Shown: positions 2,270 through 52,191 of the stretch, piece by piece
Layout: each line of letters starts with the position of its first letter
How positions within the stretch are numbered: the stretch's first letter is position 1
DNA from: Aurantiacibacter zhengii
GTDB taxonomy: Bacteria; Pseudomonadota; Alphaproteobacteria; Sphingomonadales; Sphingomonadaceae
DNA length: 64,000 bases
NCBI RefSeq assembly: GCF_003584125.1
Contig: NZ_QXFL01000005.1
Span: 62,001 to 126,000, forward strand
Reading direction: 5' to 3'
Translations under genes and position numbers: made by a program
The notes under the pieces: model-generated
Seen by the model: the letters and a program-made list of their open reading frames with translations, nothing else
Told to the model about the DNA's origin: nothing
Database searches by the model: none

Positions 2270-3508
2270 CTACCTGCTAGCCGTCGATACCACCTCGCCC
2301 TCGATCACCACGCCGGTGACGTGGGTCACGTATTCGAAGGGGTCGCCGTCGAACATGGCGACGTCGCCGTCCTTGCCGACTTCCAGGCTGCCCACGCGTT
2401 CGTCCATGCCGATGATGCGTGCGGCATCGATGGTGATGCTGGCAAGGGCATCTTCGGGCGCCAGGCCGTTGCCCGCGGCGAAGCCTGCTTCCCACAGCAC
2501 AACGCGGGTCTTGGGCACATAGGCCTCGTACCCCGATTGCAGCGCGAACGGGATCCCTGCCTCTGCCAGCACGGCGGCGGTGGTGAAGGATGCGTTTTCC
2601 AGTTCGCCCTCGTTACGCGCCATCGTGGGGTGCAGCATCACGGAGACGCCCGCCTCGCGCAGTTCGTCCAGCAGCAGGTGCGCGTCGGCCGCGCCGTCGA
2701 TCACCACCTCGATACCGAACTCGTCGGCCAGGCGCAGGGCAGACATGATGTCCTGCGCGCGGTTGGCGGTGACGAGCAGCGGACGCTCTCCCCGCACGAC
2801 AGAGGCAAAAGCCTCGTTGATCAGGTCGCGGCTGGGATCGAACGCGTTATCGTCTTCGTCGTCCGCGTCGTTCTCATCGCGGTCCGTCCCGGTGCGCGCA
2901 TCCACCAGCGCCTGGCGCAGCATGGCGATCTGTTTGGCACGGGTGCCGGGCGAGCTTTCGCGGTCCAGCGCCCATGCGCCGAGGTTTGCGACCACCATCG
3001 TGCCATCCTCTACCAGGGCGGCATCCACGGTGTTGCCCACGGTCTTCACCACCATGGTCTGCCCGGACACCAGCGCGCCCGGGCCGTGCCCGGTGTGCAG
3101 CGTGGTGGTGCCCAGTTCGCGCACCCATTCCACCAGCCGGTCATGCGGGTTGTAGGCGTCGATAGCGCGCAGGTGCGGCTGCACCGGGGCGGTCGTGTCT
3201 AGCTGGTCCTGATCGTCGGGCTGGTTGAGATAGCCGGTCAGGCCAACGGTGGAATGGGCATCCACCAGCCCCGGCGTGACGACGGGTGCCTCCAGCACCT
3301 GCATCCCTGCGGGAATGGCGGTGCTGGTTGCCGGGCCGACCGCGGTGATCTGGCCATCCTCGATCACGACCACGCCGTTCTCGATCACGCCCTGCGGCCC
3401 CATGGTCCACACCTGCCCGCCGCGCACGGCGATATCCTGTGCAAGGGCACTGGTGGAGAGCAGGGCTGCGGTGAAAGCGCCCGCGACGAAAGTGCCAAGG
3501 TTTGTCAT
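2270..3508 (-). CDS. Secreted amidohydrolase-like protein lacking the metal ligands (probable pseudoenzyme)
   Basis: A 412-residue protein with a signal peptide (cleavage near ALA-QD, residues 22-25) and the amidohydrolase/imidazolonepropionase fold signature at both ends (TPGLVDAHST, residues 79-87; VGSLEVGKDGDVAMFDGDP). The ATG at 3508 overlaps the stop of the upstream amidohydrolase gene (ATGA), so the two are translationally coupled. Compared with that neighbour, HSH is HST (85-87), HTHR is TANR (247-250), QHG is DGA (271-273) and HSDD is SGYE (325-328). All the expected metal-binding histidines except one and the catalytic Asp are lost. It also has an acidic stretch around residues 209-220. 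I infer a structural or regulatory partner rather than an enzyme. Confidence 0.8.
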   Translation of the reverse strand: MTNLGTFVAGAFTAALLSTSALAQDIAVRGGQVWTMGPQGVIENGVVVIEDGQITAVGPATSTAIPAGMQVLEAPVVTPGLVDAHSTVGLTGYLNQPDDQDQLDTTAPVQPHLRAIDAYNPHDRLVEWVRELGTTTLHTGHGPGALVSGQTMVVKTVGNTVDAALVEDGTMVVANLGAWALDRESSPGTRAKQIAMLRQALVDARTGTDRDENDADDEDDNAFDPSRDLINEAFASVVRGERPLLVTANRAQDIMSALRLADEFGIEVVIDGAADAHLLLDELREAGVSVMLHPTMARNEGELENASFTTAAVLAEAGIPFALQSGYEAYVPKTRVVLWEAGFAAGNGLAPEDALASITIDAARIIGMDERVGSLEVGKDGDVAMFDGDPFEYVTHVTGVVIEGEVVSTASR

Positions 3509-10202: not shown

Positions 10203-11177
10203 ATGGAACTCGTAACCGTAGACATCGGCGGCACGCACGCGCGCTTCGCCATCGCCACGCGGGCCGCAGACGGCACCCTGACGATGGACGAGCCGATCAC
10301 GCTGCACACCGAAGACCATGCCAGCTTCCAGACCGCGTGGGAGGATTACCGCGCGCAGAAGGGCGGCACCCTTCCCGATGCTGTGGCCATGGCTATCGCC
10401 GGTCCCGTCGGCGGCGAAGTGATCCGTTTCACCAACAACCCGTGGATCATCAGGCCCGCGCTGGTGGAATCGAAACTCGGCGTTTCGCGCCACACGATCG
10501 TCAACGATTTCGAGGCGGTCGCCCATGCCGTCGCTCGCGCTGGCGAAGACGAACTGCTCCACCTTACCGGTCCGGAGGGGCCGCTGAAGCCCACCGGTCG
10601 ATTATCTGTGCTCGGCCCGGGCACCGGGCTTGGCGTCGCGCATCTCTACCGCGAGGCCGATGGCACTTACCGCGTCTCGGCGACCGAGGGCGGCCATATC
10701 GATTTCGCTCCGCTCGACCCCATCGAAGACGCGATCCTCGCCCGCCTGCGCAAGCGCCACAATCGTGTGTCGGCAGAGCGCGTGGTATCGGGCCCCGCCA
10801 TCGTGGACATCTACGCCACCCTCGCCGCGCTGGAAGGCCGCGCGGTGGTGGAGCAGGACGACATCGCGATCTGGAAAGCCGGGATGGACGGTTCGGACAG
10901 CCTGGCCGCTGCCGCCATAGACCGGTTCTGCCTCTCGCTGGGCGCGGTGGCTGGCGACATCGCACTGGCGCAAGGCGGCTTTTCCGGCGTGGTGATCGCC
11001 GGCGGCCTTGGCTACCGCCTGCGCGACCACTTGCCCAACTCCGGCTTCGCGGAACGCTTCCGCGCCAAGGGCCGTTTCGAAAACCTGATGGCGGGCATCC
11101 CCGTCAAGCTTATCACCCATCCCCAGCCCGGCCTCTTCGGCGCGGCTGCCGCATTCCTTCAAAGCCACGGAGACTGA
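10203..11177 (+). CDS. glk: Glucokinase
   Basis: A 324-residue glucokinase of the bacterial Glk (PF02685) family, phosphorylating glucose with ATP. It opens VDIGGTHARFAIA (phosphate-binding) and has a sugar-binding segment (ATEGGHIDFAPLD) and a late VIAGGLGYRL. The GGAGGGGATAGGA just before the ATG resembles the site in front of the zwf leader. It sits 36 bases after edd and six before eda, so it belongs to the same operon. The order zwf-edd-glk also occurs in Zymomonas. Confidence 0.94.
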   Translation: MELVTVDIGGTHARFAIATRAADGTLTMDEPITLHTEDHASFQTAWEDYRAQKGGTLPDAVAMAIAGPVGGEVIRFTNNPWIIRPALVESKLGVSRHTIVNDFEAVAHAVARAGEDELLHLTGPEGPLKPTGRLSVLGPGTGLGVAHLYREADGTYRVSATEGGHIDFAPLDPIEDAILARLRKRHNRVSAERVVSGPAIVDIYATLAALEGRAVVEQDDIAIWKAGMDGSDSLAAAAIDRFCLSLGAVAGDIALAQGGFSGVVIAGGLGYRLRDHLPNSGFAERFRAKGRFENLMAGIPVKLITHPQPGLFGAAAAFLQSHGD

Positions 11178-44873: not shown

Positions 44874-45668
44874 TCAGTCCAGCGGGCGGCTGGAGCCGAA
44901 GAACAGCGCCTGGCTGATCGCCGCGCGCACCGTGTCTTCCTGGAACGGCTTGGTGATGAGGTAGGTCGGCTCGGGCCGATCACCCGTCAGCAGGCGTTCG
45001 GGATAGGCAGTGATGAAGATCACCGGCACCGACTGGATGGCGAGGATATCGTCCACCGCGTCGAGGCCCGAGGAACCGTCGGCCAGCTGGATGTCGGCAA
45101 GCACGAGACCCGGCGTCTTGTCCGCCACCACATCCTGCGCCTGCGTGCGCGTGGCAGCAGTCCCGCAGATTTCGTGGCCCAGCGATTTCACCAGGTCTTC
45201 AAGCTGCATGGAGATAAGCGGCTCGTCCTCGATGATGAGGACGCTGGTCGCGCTTTCGCGCTCGATCTCTGCGACGGCTTCACGGACGAGTTCTTCCACG
45301 TCGGATTCGCTCATGTCCATGATCTCGGCAGCTTCCTCGGCGGAGAAATCCTCCACCGTCGTCAGCAGCAGCGCCTGGCGGTTGACCGGTGTGATACGCT
45401 TCAACTGGTCCTGCGCAGCGATCTCATGGGTGCTGCCCATCGACTCGGCGCTTTCAACTTCCATGTACGCGCTCGACCAGACCTTGTTGAACGCCTTGTA
45501 CAGCGGAACCCGGCCACCGCGCAGGCTGTCCGCGACGCCTTCGTCGGCGAGAGCAGCTTCCAGCGTGGCCTGGACAAATGCATCGCCGGTCGACTGCGAG
45601 CCCGTGAGAGCGCGCGCGTAGCGGCGGAGAAACGGCAGGTGTGCAGCAACTTCGGCACCAATACTCAT
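44874..45668 (-). CDS. phyR: General stress response anti-anti-sigma regulator PhyR
   Basis: A 264-residue PhyR: an N-terminal sigma-factor-like domain (about 1-138, LPFLRRYARALTGSQSTGDAFVQATLEAAL and RQALLLTTVEDFSAEEAAEIMDMSESDVEELV) fused to a receiver (about 142-260) with acidic pair E147-D148, phosphoacceptor D192 and K240. When phosphorylated, PhyR binds the anti-sigma factor NepR and frees the ECF sigma factor EcfG. The region upstream carries a perfect EcfG promoter, so it is probably autoregulated. Unusually, nepR and ecfG are not adjacent; a candidate sRNA and a single-domain regulator are. Confidence 0.95.
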   Translation of the reverse strand: MSIGAEVAAHLPFLRRYARALTGSQSTGDAFVQATLEAALADEGVADSLRGGRVPLYKAFNKVWSSAYMEVESAESMGSTHEIAAQDQLKRITPVNRQALLLTTVEDFSAEEAAEIMDMSESDVEELVREAVAEIERESATSVLIIEDEPLISMQLEDLVKSLGHEICGTAATRTQAQDVVADKTPGLVLADIQLADGSSGLDAVDDILAIQSVPVIFITAYPERLLTGDRPEPTYLITKPFQEDTVRAAISQALFFGSSRPLD

Positions 45669-45699: not shown

Positions 45700-45724
45700 A
45701 ACGCGCGCGGTGCGCTTGGGTTCC
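45700..45724 (-). promoter_or_regulatory. EcfG promoter of phyR
   Basis: On the minus strand GGAAC (45724-45720), a 16-base spacer and CGTT (45703-45700) match the general-stress sigma consensus exactly. The predicted start lies about 25 bases before the phyR ATG, which has GGGAAGGG five bases upstream. This gives the positive feedback known for PhyR systems. Confidence 0.8.
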
Positions 45725-45823
45725 AGATGGCTTTTTCCGCGCCGATGTCCACCTCCGATTGCGCGTCACCGGAACGGCCCAGCCAAGCCCGCGAAAATTT
45801 TTTCAATTTTTTTTACGGGCCGG

Positions 45824-45848
45824 GGAACCGGTTTTCGAGACGGTCATT
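45824..45848 (+). promoter_or_regulatory. EcfG-type promoter of the candidate sRNA
   Basis: GGAAC (45824-45828), a 16-base spacer and CATT (45845-45848) match GGAAC-N16-CGTT except for one -10 base. The expected transcription start near 45855 coincides with the first base of the sRNA hairpin, which supports the reading. Confidence 0.6.
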
Positions 45849-45854
45849 TAGTCT

Positions 45855-45942
45855 GTATCACCGCCGAGACCCCCCTCCCGTCCAAGCGGCTGGTGATACG
45901 ATCCCAAGAGGCCTCCGATCACAGATCGGGGGCCTTTTTTTT
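45855..45942 (+). ncRNA. Candidate GsrN-like general-stress small RNA
   Basis: An 88-base unit on the + strand, antisense to no gene. It opens with a hairpin: GTATCACCGCCG (45855-45866) pairs with CGGC-T-GGTGATAC (45887-45899, one bulged T) around a 20-base loop holding CCCCCCTCCC (45870-45879). It ends with an intrinsic terminator (45909-45942): 11 of 12 stem pairs plus a G-T wobble and eight Ts. A C-rich 5' loop that can pair with ribosome binding sites, an EcfG promoter and a 3' terminator are the features of GsrN, the sigma-T-dependent stress sRNA of Caulobacter. Lying between phyR and another stress regulator adds support. No coding potential is evident. Confidence 0.7.
45909..45942 (+). 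terminator. Intrinsic terminator of the candidate sRNA
   Basis: AGGCCTCCGATC and GATCGGGGGCCT form a 12-pair stem (one T-G wobble) with a three-base loop, followed by a run of eight Ts. It is the clearest intrinsic terminator in the window, and no protein gene on this strand explains it. Confidence 0.9.
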
Positions 45943-46028: not shown

Positions 46029-46472
46029 CTAGCGGAGCAGGCGTGAAAAGAGGCCACGCTTGCGCCCGGCGGCCATGACCTGAACCAGTTGTTCGGGATC
46101 GTAGGGCTTCTCGAAGATCGGTCCCATCTGGGCGATTTCCTTCGGAATGTCGCCGGGCGAACCGGTAGAGAATGCAATCCAGGGCCGCTTCGGGCCGAGC
46201 ATGTCGACCAGTTCCGCCAGCGCCCATCCGTCGTCACGGTCGGCAAGATGGACGTCGAGCACAATCGCATCGAGCCTGTCCCCGTCCTCCAGCTGCTCCA
46301 TGGTGGATTGCATGGTGTGACAGATGATCACCTCTTCGGCGCCGCCGGAAAGCAGGGCGTCTTCCAGCGACATGGCCAGCACGGCATCGTCCTCCACCAG
46401 CAAAACACGGCCAAGCTTTGGCAGCTTGCCATTCTTGCCGGAGCCGGCCTTGGAAACAGCAGTCTTGCTCAT
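46029..46472 (-). CDS. Single-domain response regulator, FAT GUY-like (SdrG type)
   Basis: A 147-residue receiver without an output domain. Acidic pocket ED(28-29), phosphoacceptor D73 (IVLDVHLAD), and IAFSTGSPGDIP with K122 in IFEKPY. FSTG followed by PIFEKPY is a variant of the FATGxY/KP motif of the FAT GUY receivers that shuttle phosphate in the general stress response of sphingomonads (SdrG) and Caulobacter (MrrA). It lies close to phyR on the same strand and has its own perfect EcfG promoter. GGAG precedes the ATG. No kinase is in the window. Confidence 0.85.
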   Translation of the reverse strand: MSKTAVSKAGSGKNGKLPKLGRVLLVEDDAVLAMSLEDALLSGGAEEVIICHTMQSTMEQLEDGDRLDAIVLDVHLADRDDGWALAELVDMLGPKRPWIAFSTGSPGDIPKEIAQMGPIFEKPYDPEQLVQVMAAGRKRGLFSRLLR

Positions 46473-46525: not shown

Positions 46526-46551
46526 AACGCCGGTGCGCGCCACCAAGTTCC
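46526..46551 (-). promoter_or_regulatory. EcfG promoter of the single-domain response regulator
   Basis: On the minus strand GGAAC (46551-46547), a 17-base spacer and CGTT (46529-46526) match the general-stress sigma consensus exactly. The predicted start is about 46 bases before the ATG at 46472. It ties the gene to the phyR regulon. Confidence 0.8.
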
Positions 46552-46571: not shown

Positions 46572-47726
46572 TCAGAGGGTCTTGCTGTAGAGATTGTAAA
46601 CCCGGTTCACCTTCGCCCCGATGGCATCGGCAATTGCCTTCATCCCCTGGTTGTCCTCCAGGATCCAGCCGATCTCGCCACGTTCTGCATCGAAGCGGCC
46701 GACGGAATAGCGGCGGATATATTCGATCATCATGAAAGCCAGCTGGCTGGCCATGCGGCTGTTCTGATACTTGGGGATCACGCCCATAAGCGGCACACGC
46801 CAGTTGAGCGAATCCGGATTGCGCAGCCACCACAGCAGCTTCAGCCAGTTGAACGGCAGCAGCTTGCCGTCGTAATCGACAAGCTTCTGGTTGATGTCCG
46901 GCCACGCGAGCATGAAGGCGGCCGGCTCTCCATCCACGAAGGCGATCATGTTCGCGCCCTGCTTGGTCAGCGGCTTCAGCTTGTTGGAGGCGTAGACCTT
47001 TTCTTTCTCCGTAAACGGAACATAGCCCCAGTTGTTGGACCACGCGGCGTTCAGGATATCCATGCAGATGGCCGCGTCCGCCTCGAAGTTCTTGGTGTCG
47101 ACCATGCGCACGTGGATGCGGCTGGATTTCTCTCCCGATGCCACGATGCGATCGATCAGCGGCGGGAAACCGGCGTGGATTTGCAGATCGTAAGTCAGCA
47201 GGCGCTTCGCCACGGTATAGCCCTGCGCCTCCACCCAGCCCTGATAGGCGGCATTGTGATGGCCCATCATGATCATCGGCTGATGATCGTGACCTTCCAC
47301 CAGCAGACCCGGCTCGTCCCACACGGAGAGGCTAAACGGCGCGAGAACGCGGGTCATGCCCTGTTCGCGCAGCCAGTCTTCCGCGCGCGCGATCAGCGCG
47401 GCCATCACCTGTTCGTCCGCAGCCTCCATCAGGCCCCAGTTGCCGGTTCCCGGCCCGCTGCCCTGCTCGGGCGGCTGGGCCAGCGCGAGCTCATCGTAGT
47501 GGGAGGAAATCCGGCCCACCACCTTGCCCGCGCGGCGTGCGAGGAACAGTTGTACCTTGGCGTGCTCGAAAAAAGGGTTCTTCTTTTCGTTCAGCAGTTC
47601 GCGCACTTCCATGCGCAGCGGCGGAACCCAGTTAGGATCGTCCTTGTTCAGCTCGAAGGCAATTTCTATGAATGCGTCGAGGTCGCCCTTGCCGGAAACC
47701 GGGGCAATATCTATCTGCTGGCTCAC
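46572..47726 (-). CDS. GNAT-fold protein of the YghO type, unknown substrate
   Basis: A 384-residue protein resembling E. coli YghO and related GNAT-like proteins. It begins with an acetyltransferase-like N-terminal half (DPNWVPPLRMEVRELLNEKKNPFFEHAKVQLFLARRAGKVVGRISSHYDE) and a second half with ILNAAWSNNWGYVPFTEKE and MGVIPKYQNSRMASQLAFMMIEYIRR, like a GNAT acetyl-CoA segment. The start is a GTG at 47726. The substrate is unknown. A perfect FNR-type site lies 35-47 bases upstream. Confidence 0.75.
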   Translation of the reverse strand: MSQQIDIAPVSGKGDLDAFIEIAFELNKDDPNWVPPLRMEVRELLNEKKNPFFEHAKVQLFLARRAGKVVGRISSHYDELALAQPPEQGSGPGTGNWGLMEAADEQVMAALIARAEDWLREQGMTRVLAPFSLSVWDEPGLLVEGHDHQPMIMMGHHNAAYQGWVEAQGYTVAKRLLTYDLQIHAGFPPLIDRIVASGEKSSRIHVRMVDTKNFEADAAICMDILNAAWSNNWGYVPFTEKEKVYASNKLKPLTKQGANMIAFVDGEPAAFMLAWPDINQKLVDYDGKLLPFNWLKLLWWLRNPDSLNWRVPLMGVIPKYQNSRMASQLAFMMIEYIRRYSVGRFDAERGEIGWILEDNQGMKAIADAIGAKVNRVYNLYSKTL

Positions 47727-48977: not shown

Positions 48978-49229
48978 CTATTCCATCGTGTCAGGCGTCT
49001 CTTCGGTATCTTCCATGGTGCCGGTCTCGTCCATCGTATCGTCCGTCATGCCCGCTTCACTGTCGGCCGCCTCGGCATTGTATTCCTGAACCGATTCCGG
49101 CGTATCGGATGTCACGTCGAGCACGGTCTCGGCGGTGGGATCTTCGGACACTTCGGGCTCGGCATCGGCGCAGGCTGCCAAAGCCATGGCAGCGGCGAGC
49201 GGAAGGGCGGCAAACTTGATAGCTTTCAT
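48978..49229 (-). CDS. Small acidic lipoprotein in the EcfG regulon
   Basis: An 83-residue protein with a lipobox (ALAAC, Cys at 20) and a very acidic mature part rich in Asp, Glu and Thr (MTDDTMDETGTMEDTEETPDTME at the end). AAGGAG precedes the ATG at 49229. A perfect EcfG promoter lies 32-57 bases upstream, so it is probably a stress-induced envelope lipoprotein. I do not recognise a family. It resembles the lipoprotein at 38259-38501 in layout. Confidence 0.75.
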   Translation of the reverse strand: MKAIKFAALPLAAAMALAACADAEPEVSEDPTAETVLDVTSDTPESVQEYNAEAADSEAGMTDDTMDETGTMEDTEETPDTME

Positions 49230-49260
49230 GAGGGATGCTCCTTGGTGCGTTCCTGCCATC

Positions 49261-49286
49261 AACGCAGCGTAAATCGCAGCGGTTCC
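49261..49286 (-). promoter_or_regulatory. EcfG promoter of the small lipoprotein gene
   Basis: On the minus strand GGAAC (49286-49282), a 17-base spacer and CGTT (49264-49261) match the consensus exactly. The predicted start is about 24 bases upstream of the lipoprotein ATG with its AAGGAG. Confidence 0.75.
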
Positions 49287-50924: not shown

Positions 50925-52191
50925 CGGGCAGGCCCTCCCGCCGCTGCAATTCCTCTTGCTCGTGCGTGTGCAGGTCTTCGTCGGGCACCAGGCCGCGCAG
51001 CTTGTCACGCCCGATCAGTTTCCTCAGGCGGCGCGCAATCTTCGACCAGAAGCTTTCGAGGAAGCCGATGGCCTGTCCACCCGGCACGAAGGCGACCTGA
51101 TAATACATCCACGCGATCACGGCGAACAGCACCGCAAACGGCCCCCATAACGCCAGGAACGGATCGATCCGTCCGATCTCCGCCACTTCGGAGCCGTATT
51201 GGTTGATCTTGTGATAGGCGACCACGATGACAATGGAGAGAAACACGCCCAGCGCCGACGTGCTGCGTTTGGGCGGCACGGCCAGCGCCACCGCCAGGAA
51301 CGGCAGCATCAGCATCATCACCACCTCGACCATGCGGTAATTGAAATTGGCCTGGCTGCCGACGCGTTCTTCGGTCGTGCTCTCGGGGTTCCAGCCGATC
51401 TCCAGCAGTTCGGGCAGGACATATTCGCGTTCATCCTCGCCGCGGTCGCGGAACTGCTCGATTGCGGGCAGGTCTATCGGAAGGTCGTGCTGGCTGAAGC
51501 TGAGGACGCGGGGACTGCCGTCGGCGACATTGTGGACGATCACGCCATCCACCAGCCGCAGGATGATGGTGTTGCGATCCTCGCGGTTGGCGAGGAAGCG
51601 CCCCTCGCGCGCGGAGATCGAGAGGACCTGTCCGGAATCGTCCGCGACGCGGGCGAAAATGCCCATCAGCTGGCGCCCCTCGTCCTCGCTGGCCTCGATC
51701 CTCAGCGCCATGCGATCCTCGATCGTGTTGAATTCGCCGACCTTGATCGAGGCGCCCAGCGCGCCGGAGCGCAGTTCGAATTCCATCTCTTCATAGGCGA
51801 AGCGCGCCTGCGGCTGGATGAACCCGACGATGGCGAAATTCAGCGCCACCAGCGCAAGCGTGATGAGGAACGGCACCCGCAGCAGCCGGGTGTAGGACCA
51901 TCCCACGGCGCGCATCACGTCCAGCTCGCTGGAGATGGCCAGCTTTCGAAAGGCGAACAGGATGCCCAGCATCAGCCCCAGCGGAATGGCGAGACCGGCA
52001 TATTCGGGAACGAGGTTCAGCAGCATCTCGAAAACGATGCTGATCGGCCCGCCTTCCACGCTGACGAAATCGAACAGGCGCAGCATCTTTTCCAGCAGCA
52101 AAAGGCTGGCCGCCAGCACGAACACGCCGATCATCGGCACGATCACGAGCCGGAAGATGTAGCGGTCTGTTGCAGTGATGAAGCGGGACAC
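50914..52191 (-). CDS. lptF: LPS export ABC transporter permease LptF
   Basis: A 425-residue partner of LptG with the same layout: helices near the N-terminus (FRLVIVPMIGVFVLAASLLLLEKMLRLFDFV), the conserved LAISSELDVMRAVGWSYTRLLRVP segment, a periplasmic jelly-roll and C-terminal helices. A charged cytoplasmic tail follows (DEDLHTHEQEELQRREGL). It starts at a GTG. lptF and lptG are translationally coupled; lptB, lptA and lptC are elsewhere. Confidence 0.92.
   Translation of the reverse strand: MSRFITATDRYIFRLVIVPMIGVFVLAASLLLLEKMLRLFDFVSVEGGPISIVFEMLLNLVPEYAGLAIPLGLMLGILFAFRKLAISSELDVMRAVGWSYTRLLRVPFLITLALVALNFAIVGFIQPQARFAYEEMEFELRSGALGASIKVGEFNTIEDRMALRIEASEDEGRQLMGIFARVADDSGQVLSISAREGRFLANREDRNTIILRLVDGVIVHNVADGSPRVLSFSQHDLPIDLPAIEQFRDRGEDEREYVLPELLEIGWNPESTTEERVGSQANFNYRMVEVVMMLMLPFLAVALAVPPKRSTSALGVFLSIVIVVAYHKINQYGSEVAEIGRIDPFLALWGPFAVLFAVIAWMYYQVAFVPGGQAIGFLESFWSKIARRLRKLIGRDKLRGLVPDEDLHTHEQEELQRREGLPGAA

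Follow-up and report, generated by a model that had tools for sequence, protein, structure and literature searches.

A conserved small RNA gene with an EcfG-type promoter divergent from phyR, a putative functional analogue of GsrN

The window, i.e. the whole 64-kb stretch of DNA that was analysed, contains within its phyR locus a conserved small RNA gene of its own that is preceded by an EcfG-type promoter. This view is supported by sequence, predicted fold, conservation and synteny, and it bears out the core of the initial annotation of this place. The predicted transcript of 88 nt runs on the plus strand from approximately position 45855 to the end of a T-run at 45942, and it scores 104.7 bits with a covariance model of the family. 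We regard it as likely that the product is a trans-acting, EcfG-controlled base-pairing sRNA of the general stress response that works via a C-rich loop. As judged from its sequence, it represents an RNA family that is new, has no entry in Rfam and is of a known functional kind, and it appears to be a functional analogue of GsrN rather than a demonstrated relative by descent.

The RNA gene is located in a gap of 360 bp without genes, between the start of phyR at 45668 and the end of the next minus-strand open reading frame at 46029. NCBIfam and Pfam matches identify the two flanking genes, as had been proposed, as phyR (44874..45668), which is the divergent neighbour, and a gene for a single-domain response regulator (46029..46472), both on the minus strand. 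The identity of PhyR is certain, with a score of 365.9 bits against NCBIfam NF006623 (cut-off 240). The response regulator has one receiver domain with a marginal score for Pfam Response_reg (31.3 versus a cut-off of 30.2 bits), and the GNAT-like gene on its far side (46572..47726, minus strand), which is a conserved flank of the locus, is barely above the cut-off of Pfam Acetyltransf_1 (20.9 versus 20.7 bits). Sequence matches to EcfG-type promoters are also present upstream of phyR itself (GGAAC-N16-CGTT, 45700..45724, minus strand) and upstream of the response regulator gene (GGAAC-N17-CGTT, 46526..46551, minus strand). Altogether, GGAAC-N16/17-C[AG]TT occurs seven times in the window when both strands are summed. 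Further matches to GGAAC-N16/17-CGTT lie at 11051 (+), 24775 (+), 34931 (+) and 49286 (-), some of which may be due to chance; the last of these is located upstream of a small open reading frame (48978-49262) that looks lipoprotein-like by eye.

The nepR and ecfG genes are encoded on the same contig, 27 kb away and outside the window, and nepR is preceded by GGAAC-N16-CGTT. Here, the name ecfG is based on the position after nepR and on similarity to the ecfG-like genes of other phyR loci. The distance of 27 kb between phyR and nepR-ecfG (G000:C25 ~135100-135983) compares with approximately 2 kb in many other carriers of the RNA. Hfq is encoded in the genome as well. Two consecutive Hfq domains share one frame of 210 amino acids (G000:C1:203348-203776; L341, L342), which makes a tandem Hfq protein.

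The promoter-like element GGAAC-N16-CATT that had been noted initially is present on the plus strand at 45824..45848, with GGAAC at 45824-45828, a spacer of 16 bases and CATT at 45845-45848. An EcfG-type promoter is one of the features that define the GsrN-like functional class, and in the present RNA it is recognised by sequence match alone. Among 153 distinct loci of the family, 152 have sufficient upstream sequence to be checked, and a promoter of the form GGAAC-N15..18-[CTG][AG]TT was found in 145 of these. The spacer is N16 in 142 of the 145 matches, while the -10 box reads CATT in 129, CGTT in 14 and TATT in 2; the remaining seven loci have retained GGAAC and carry an altered -10 box. 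For Sphingopyxis granuli, the EcfG consensus has been described as GGAAC-N16-CGTT, a promoter with a CATT box was transcribed in vitro, and a swap from CGTT to CATT reduced transcription in vitro (PMC7083833). In Sphingomonas melonis, GGAAC-N17-20-GTT has been reported (PMC6599016). Upstream of the -35 box there is an A/T tract (45794..45815, plus strand), the consensus of which, AAAAATTTT, is kept at about the same distance in related loci, with 0.6-1.1 bits of information per column at offsets -56 to -48 (148 loci). This tract may act as an UP-like element.

A long 5' hairpin with a 20-base loop holding CCCCCCUCCC had been described for this RNA, and it is indeed found at that place: the predicted hairpin covers 45855..45899 on the plus strand, with a stem of 12 pairs and the 20-base loop at 45867-45886. 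The C-rich, anti-Shine-Dalgarno-like part of this loop, CCCCCCTCCC, occupies 45870..45879 and is marked by its conservation. In the predicted fold, three extra pairs (GAC/GUC) form within the loop, leaving an apical loop of 9 bases. The RNA ends in an intrinsic terminator (45906..45942, plus strand), which is supported by fold and covariation and which consists of a hairpin at 45906-45938 and a run of eight Ts at 45935-45942; its stem has the 12 pairs initially described, and 15 in the predicted fold. Thus, a 5' hairpin with an unpaired C-rich loop is combined with an intrinsic terminator, a combination that also belongs to the definition of the GsrN-like functional class. The fold energy is -44.3 kcal/mol, shuffled sequences average -23.85 (sd 2.97; z of -6.89), and none of 200 shuffles was as good. 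A chance structure is ruled out by these shuffles together with the conservation of the RNA.

The initial annotation had made its proposal dependent on covariation of both stems, which proved to be pronounced for the terminator and slight, within the family, for the 5' stem. In an alignment of 56 sequences, which are the best matches and hence a selected core set, 97.2% of the cells pair and 10 pairs have changed on both sides, a result that was matched by none of 500 shuffles. Changes on both sides affect 8 of the 15 pairs of the terminator stem and 2 of the 11 pairs of the 5' stem, the latter being nearly invariant. This low number suggests that the 5' half is kept in sequence, and not for its structure alone. 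The sequence CCCCCTCCCGTCCA / CCCCCUCCCGUCCA is invariant across the 56 aligned sequences, and the exact 15-mer CCCCCTCCCGTCCAA occurs in 115 of 118 strong carriers (the exceptions are G132, G245 and G265). The length of the C-run varies from 5 to 9, and that of the terminator loop varies too, which argues for an RNA rather than a peptide; a conserved peptide was ruled out on these grounds. Across 148 loci, the information per column is 0.06 bits at -120 to -60, rises through the A/T tract and the promoter, amounts to 1.82 bits at the base of the 5' stem and to 1.45 bits after the loop, and falls to 0.01 bits past the terminator. Conservation is therefore confined to the region from the promoter through the T-run, which is the profile of one transcription unit.

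A search at the DNA level detected the RNA in 35 of the 37 genomes of the genus, the own genome included, with E-values of at most 7.8e-5. The two genomes missed were G009 (E-value of 0.6) and G032 (no match; 86% complete). Outside the family, 24 genomes of the order gave no DNA match with an E-value below 0.1. Among 298 genomes of the family, 120 genomes from 40 of the 96 sampled genera had matches with E-values of at most 0.001 (family as defined by GTDB), and the covariance model built from the 56 sequences scored at least 61 bits in 118 of the 298, the next scores being 39.3 bits, at a contig edge, and 35.9 bits. When the model was applied to 289 genomes of the class, three from the own family scored 94-105 bits and all others at most 32.2 bits. 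A pattern scan of named genomes gave at least 118 stretches. Among the matches listed, 10 stretches that lacked all three neighbour genes came from other phyla or orders; the others listed came from Erythrobacteraceae, including Qipengyuania, Erythrobacter, Porphyrobacter, Croceicoccus, Alteraurantiacibacter and Aurantiacibacter, and also from Novosphingobium, Blastomonas marina and metagenome-assembled genomes of unclear rank. Rfam gave nothing at gathering score in the window, and in the segment 45790-45990 the matches to ctRNA_p42d (21 bits) and CC1840 (19.7 bits) were far under their cut-offs of 50. No report of the RNA was found in the literature searched, which did not extend to a stress-response study of E. 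litoralis DSM 8509.

To be included among the 153 distinct loci, a locus had to have one or more of the three neighbour genes (phyR, GNAT or response regulator). In these loci phyR is found upstream and divergent in 142, the GNAT-like gene downstream and opposite in 145, and the response regulator gene downstream in 107, only these orientations being counted. Where the flanks extend to at least 2.6 kb upstream and 1.3 kb downstream (51 loci), phyR is present in all 51, the GNAT-like gene in 50 and the response regulator gene in 28. One Qipengyuania locus and one Novosphingobium locus have a gene of Crp-like appearance, judged by eye, between phyR and the RNA. On the 3' side of phyR, 29 larger carrier loci have nepR in 27 and ecfG in 24 cases. 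In a tree of PhyR sequences from 43 carriers, 24 sphingomonads lacking the RNA and 6 Caulobacteraceae, which came with long-branch warnings, the carriers formed one group (support 100/99), and one change was required in 99% of the bootstrap trees. The simplest reading is a single gain in an ancestor of Erythrobacteraceae and Novosphingobium. The 15-base loop is absent from the genomes that hold the 24 sphingomonad phyR loci without the RNA (L213-L236). Within 200 bp of phyR, 21 of these 24 loci have a divergent GGAAC-N15..18-N[AG]TT, often followed by a T-rich TGTT box. The view that these promoter-like matches mark a remnant of the RNA was rejected, since none of the genomes holds the 15-base loop.

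In one genome (G139), a second copy of the loop was found (L307, G139:C35, ~2515-2529, minus strand). Here, 22 bases including the whole 20-base loop are identical to the sequence in the window, and both stem strands have been replaced with pairing retained. This copy has GGAAC-N16-CGTA upstream and its own terminator behind it. It is situated in an accessory region with glycosyltransferases, flanked by a gene for one of these and by an integrase-core fragment. The same loop on another stem suggests that the loop is the functional part, as far as a single case allows. Extra loop matches in G284, G320 and G248 were discarded, because they have no such hairpin. It should be noted that the reversed pattern matched 6 of the 298 genomes, so that a few chance matches of the loop are to be expected.

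The initial annotation took the RNA for the counterpart of GsrN, and a strongly diverged true ortholog of GsrN that has moved across phyR would be one way of explaining it. Indeed, the GsrN RNAs of Caulobacteraceae have an EcfG/SigT-type promoter, a place near phyR, a size of approximately 100 nt, a 5' hairpin whose loop carries a C-run, with six tandem Cs, and a terminator (PMC5869019), all of which have their likeness here. However, homology was not detectable. GsrN corresponds to Rfam RF01529/CC3552, a model that called it in all four Caulobacteraceae loci tested as a positive control; RF01529 did not reach gathering score in the window and was not among the 17 matches with E-values of at most 10 in the segment 45790-45990. 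A GsrN model was rebuilt from 9 sequences, the filter having taken 10 of 30 Caulobacteraceae phyR loci, of which L252 was omitted as a duplicate of L250. Of 29 phyR loci from Caulobacteraceae, 18 matched this model, with scores of 66.7-120.5 bits. The covariance check with GsrN that had been suggested turned out negative: with default filters the model gave no match at the RNA here or in any of 12 carrier sources, and its best unfiltered score in the 221-base stretch concerned was 6.7 bits. Conversely, the model of the present RNA scored 23.6 bits on one GsrN locus (L269), and the aligned part was essentially the terminator. A guessed pattern of GsrN promoter plus loop, searched in the 289 genomes of the class, returned three matches that look unrelated.

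Position and motif also set the two RNAs apart. In all 18 loci found, GsrN is encoded on the strand of phyR and 3' of it, whereas the present RNA lies 5' of phyR and is divergent. The gsrN gene of C. crescentus itself is reported to be located away from the phyR locus (PMC5869019). In GsrN there is an inner hairpin, the loop motif is CGCCCCCCCGAC and a TTCTCGATGATGC linker is conserved, whereas the present RNA has GACCCCCCUCCCGUC, so that the motif beside the C-run is a different one. Moreover, the absence of such an RNA from the 24 phyR loci of other sphingomonads speaks against orthology, which we therefore consider unlikely. What remains of the initial claim is the likeness in function, as seen in promoter, place, size and C-rich loop, and the claim of homology is not supported by Rfam, by the rebuilt model or by the side of phyR. 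The reading as a functional analogue is preferred because the tests with GsrN models failed and because the RNA is on the opposite side of phyR.

Other alphaproteobacterial sRNAs show more distant likenesses. Anti-Shine-Dalgarno-like motifs are also carried by ar14 and suhB/mmgR. These two (RF02344 and RF00519) are likewise alphaproteobacterial sRNAs with a terminator, and their models did not reach gathering score here (15.1 bits for ar14 versus a cut-off of 58.8, and 17.2 bits for suhB versus 41). The CcsR / CCUCCUCCC sRNAs of Rhodobacter, which are stress-induced, share with the present RNA a C-rich motif in hairpin loops and differ from it in having another motif and other sigma factors; the likeness is one of description. 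The same kind of likeness by description applies to the predicted GsrN-like RNAs of Rhizobiaceae, which were proposed on the basis of their promoter, their location at a stress locus and a 5' loop that is C-rich and exposed (PMC5869019).

Two further explanations do without base pairing to mRNAs. The element might act in cis or as a boundary, insulating or terminating transcription between phyR and the divergent side without any product that acts elsewhere, and its placement between two minus-strand genes and the strong terminator at its end would fit this. However, both flanking genes are on the minus strand, so that the T-run, being on the plus strand, is not the terminator of either. Furthermore, an insulator needs neither a conserved promoter of its own nor a nearly invariant 5' half, and its loop would not be expected to recur elsewhere on another stem. 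A boundary function of this kind is thus highly improbable. Somewhat less remote, though still improbable, is a main role in protein binding, either CsrA/RsmA-like or by ribosomal titration, instead of mRNA pairing. The almost invariant loop is in favour of this idea, whereas a seed would be expected to drift with its targets. The CsrA motif is of the GGA type. No such motif is present in the loop sequence, and pairing with G-rich leaders is established for the C-rich loops of GsrN (PMC5869019). A base-pairing sRNA thus remains our preferred reading.

The CCUCCC of the loop resembles an anti-Shine-Dalgarno sequence, and G-rich ribosome sites would therefore be its natural partners. Two such partners, phyR and lptG, had been suggested, and both sites are present. 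The phyR site, GGGAAGGG (45681-45674, minus strand, 5 bases before the ATG), is a plausible target, albeit not a fitting one throughout the clade; the lptG site, a GGGAGGG at 50939 (-) located 8 bases upstream of a GTG that is in frame with the gene called lptG in the initial annotation, is unremarkable. GGGA[AG]GGG within 25 bases of the phyR start was found in 62 of 121 distinct carrier leaders, in none of 24 non-carriers and in 5 of 27 Caulobacteraceae, while AGGAG at the same place was found in 1, 12 and 1 of these, respectively. GTCGGGG, which fits the GsrN loop, was seen in none of the 121 carriers, none of the 24 non-carriers and 7 of the 27 Caulobacteraceae (L243, L246-L274), where phyR could be a target of GsrN.

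Predicted pairing of the phyR leader with the loop had z-values below -1.5 in 84 of 121 carriers and 4 of 24 non-carriers, compared to 4 of 55 leaders of the GNAT-like gene and 2 of 28 leaders of the response regulator gene. As a control, the 16S tail paired with the phyR leaders of 26 of 121 carriers and 9 of 24 non-carriers, and the GsrN loop paired with 37 of the 121 carrier leaders. Among the phyR leaders of Caulobacteraceae, 11 of 27 pair with the present loop and 13 of 27 with the GsrN loop, and this near-equal pairing suggests that the fit of phyR is largely a matter of G-richness. Pairing of phyR was better than that of 278 neighbouring genes with a p-value of 6e-9, which is overstated since the loci are related; 15% of these genes reach the median pairing of phyR, and only 22 of 53 loci have phyR in the top quarter. 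In several carrier lineages the loop has been kept and the phyR leader does not fit. In the own genome, GGGARGGG precedes an ATG at 40 sites versus 20 for the control, and the open reading frames behind 30 of these have been listed. The phyR mRNA is thus a plausible candidate target of the loop, and surely not the sole one.

The proposed course of events would start with transcription of the sRNA by EcfG from GGAAC-N16-CATT. The 88-nt RNA would then display CCCCCCUCCCG, with CCUCCC, in the loop on its 5' hairpin, and its terminator end with the poly-U tail would probably be bound by Hfq. The loop may pair with G-rich stretches of mRNA leaders, mostly ribosome sites, and such pairing would alter the translation or stability of the target mRNAs. 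If the phyR mRNA is one of the targets, this would create a feedback loop on the stress switch. A more far-reaching scenario, which we put forward tentatively and to which we give considerably less weight than to the sRNA function itself, is that Erythrobacteraceae and Novosphingobium gained this sRNA independently of GsrN: a portable loop under an EcfG promoter would have become fixed beside phyR, where it would pair at the ribosome site of phyR and exert feedback on the stress switch, convergent with GsrN and with the loop as a module movable between stems.

In the legend of Fig. 9 of the GsrN paper, Erythrobacter litoralis serves as the outgroup and is said to be without an apparent gsrN-like gene (PMC5869019). 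The present findings place a GsrN-like but apparently unrelated RNA, tied to phyR, in the family of this very outgroup. If the RNA is expressed, a C-rich sRNA driven by the stress sigma factor would be an element that recurs in the general stress response of Alphaproteobacteria, perhaps gained repeatedly, and the locus would then provide a simple system for asking what such RNAs regulate and whether they feed back on phyR.
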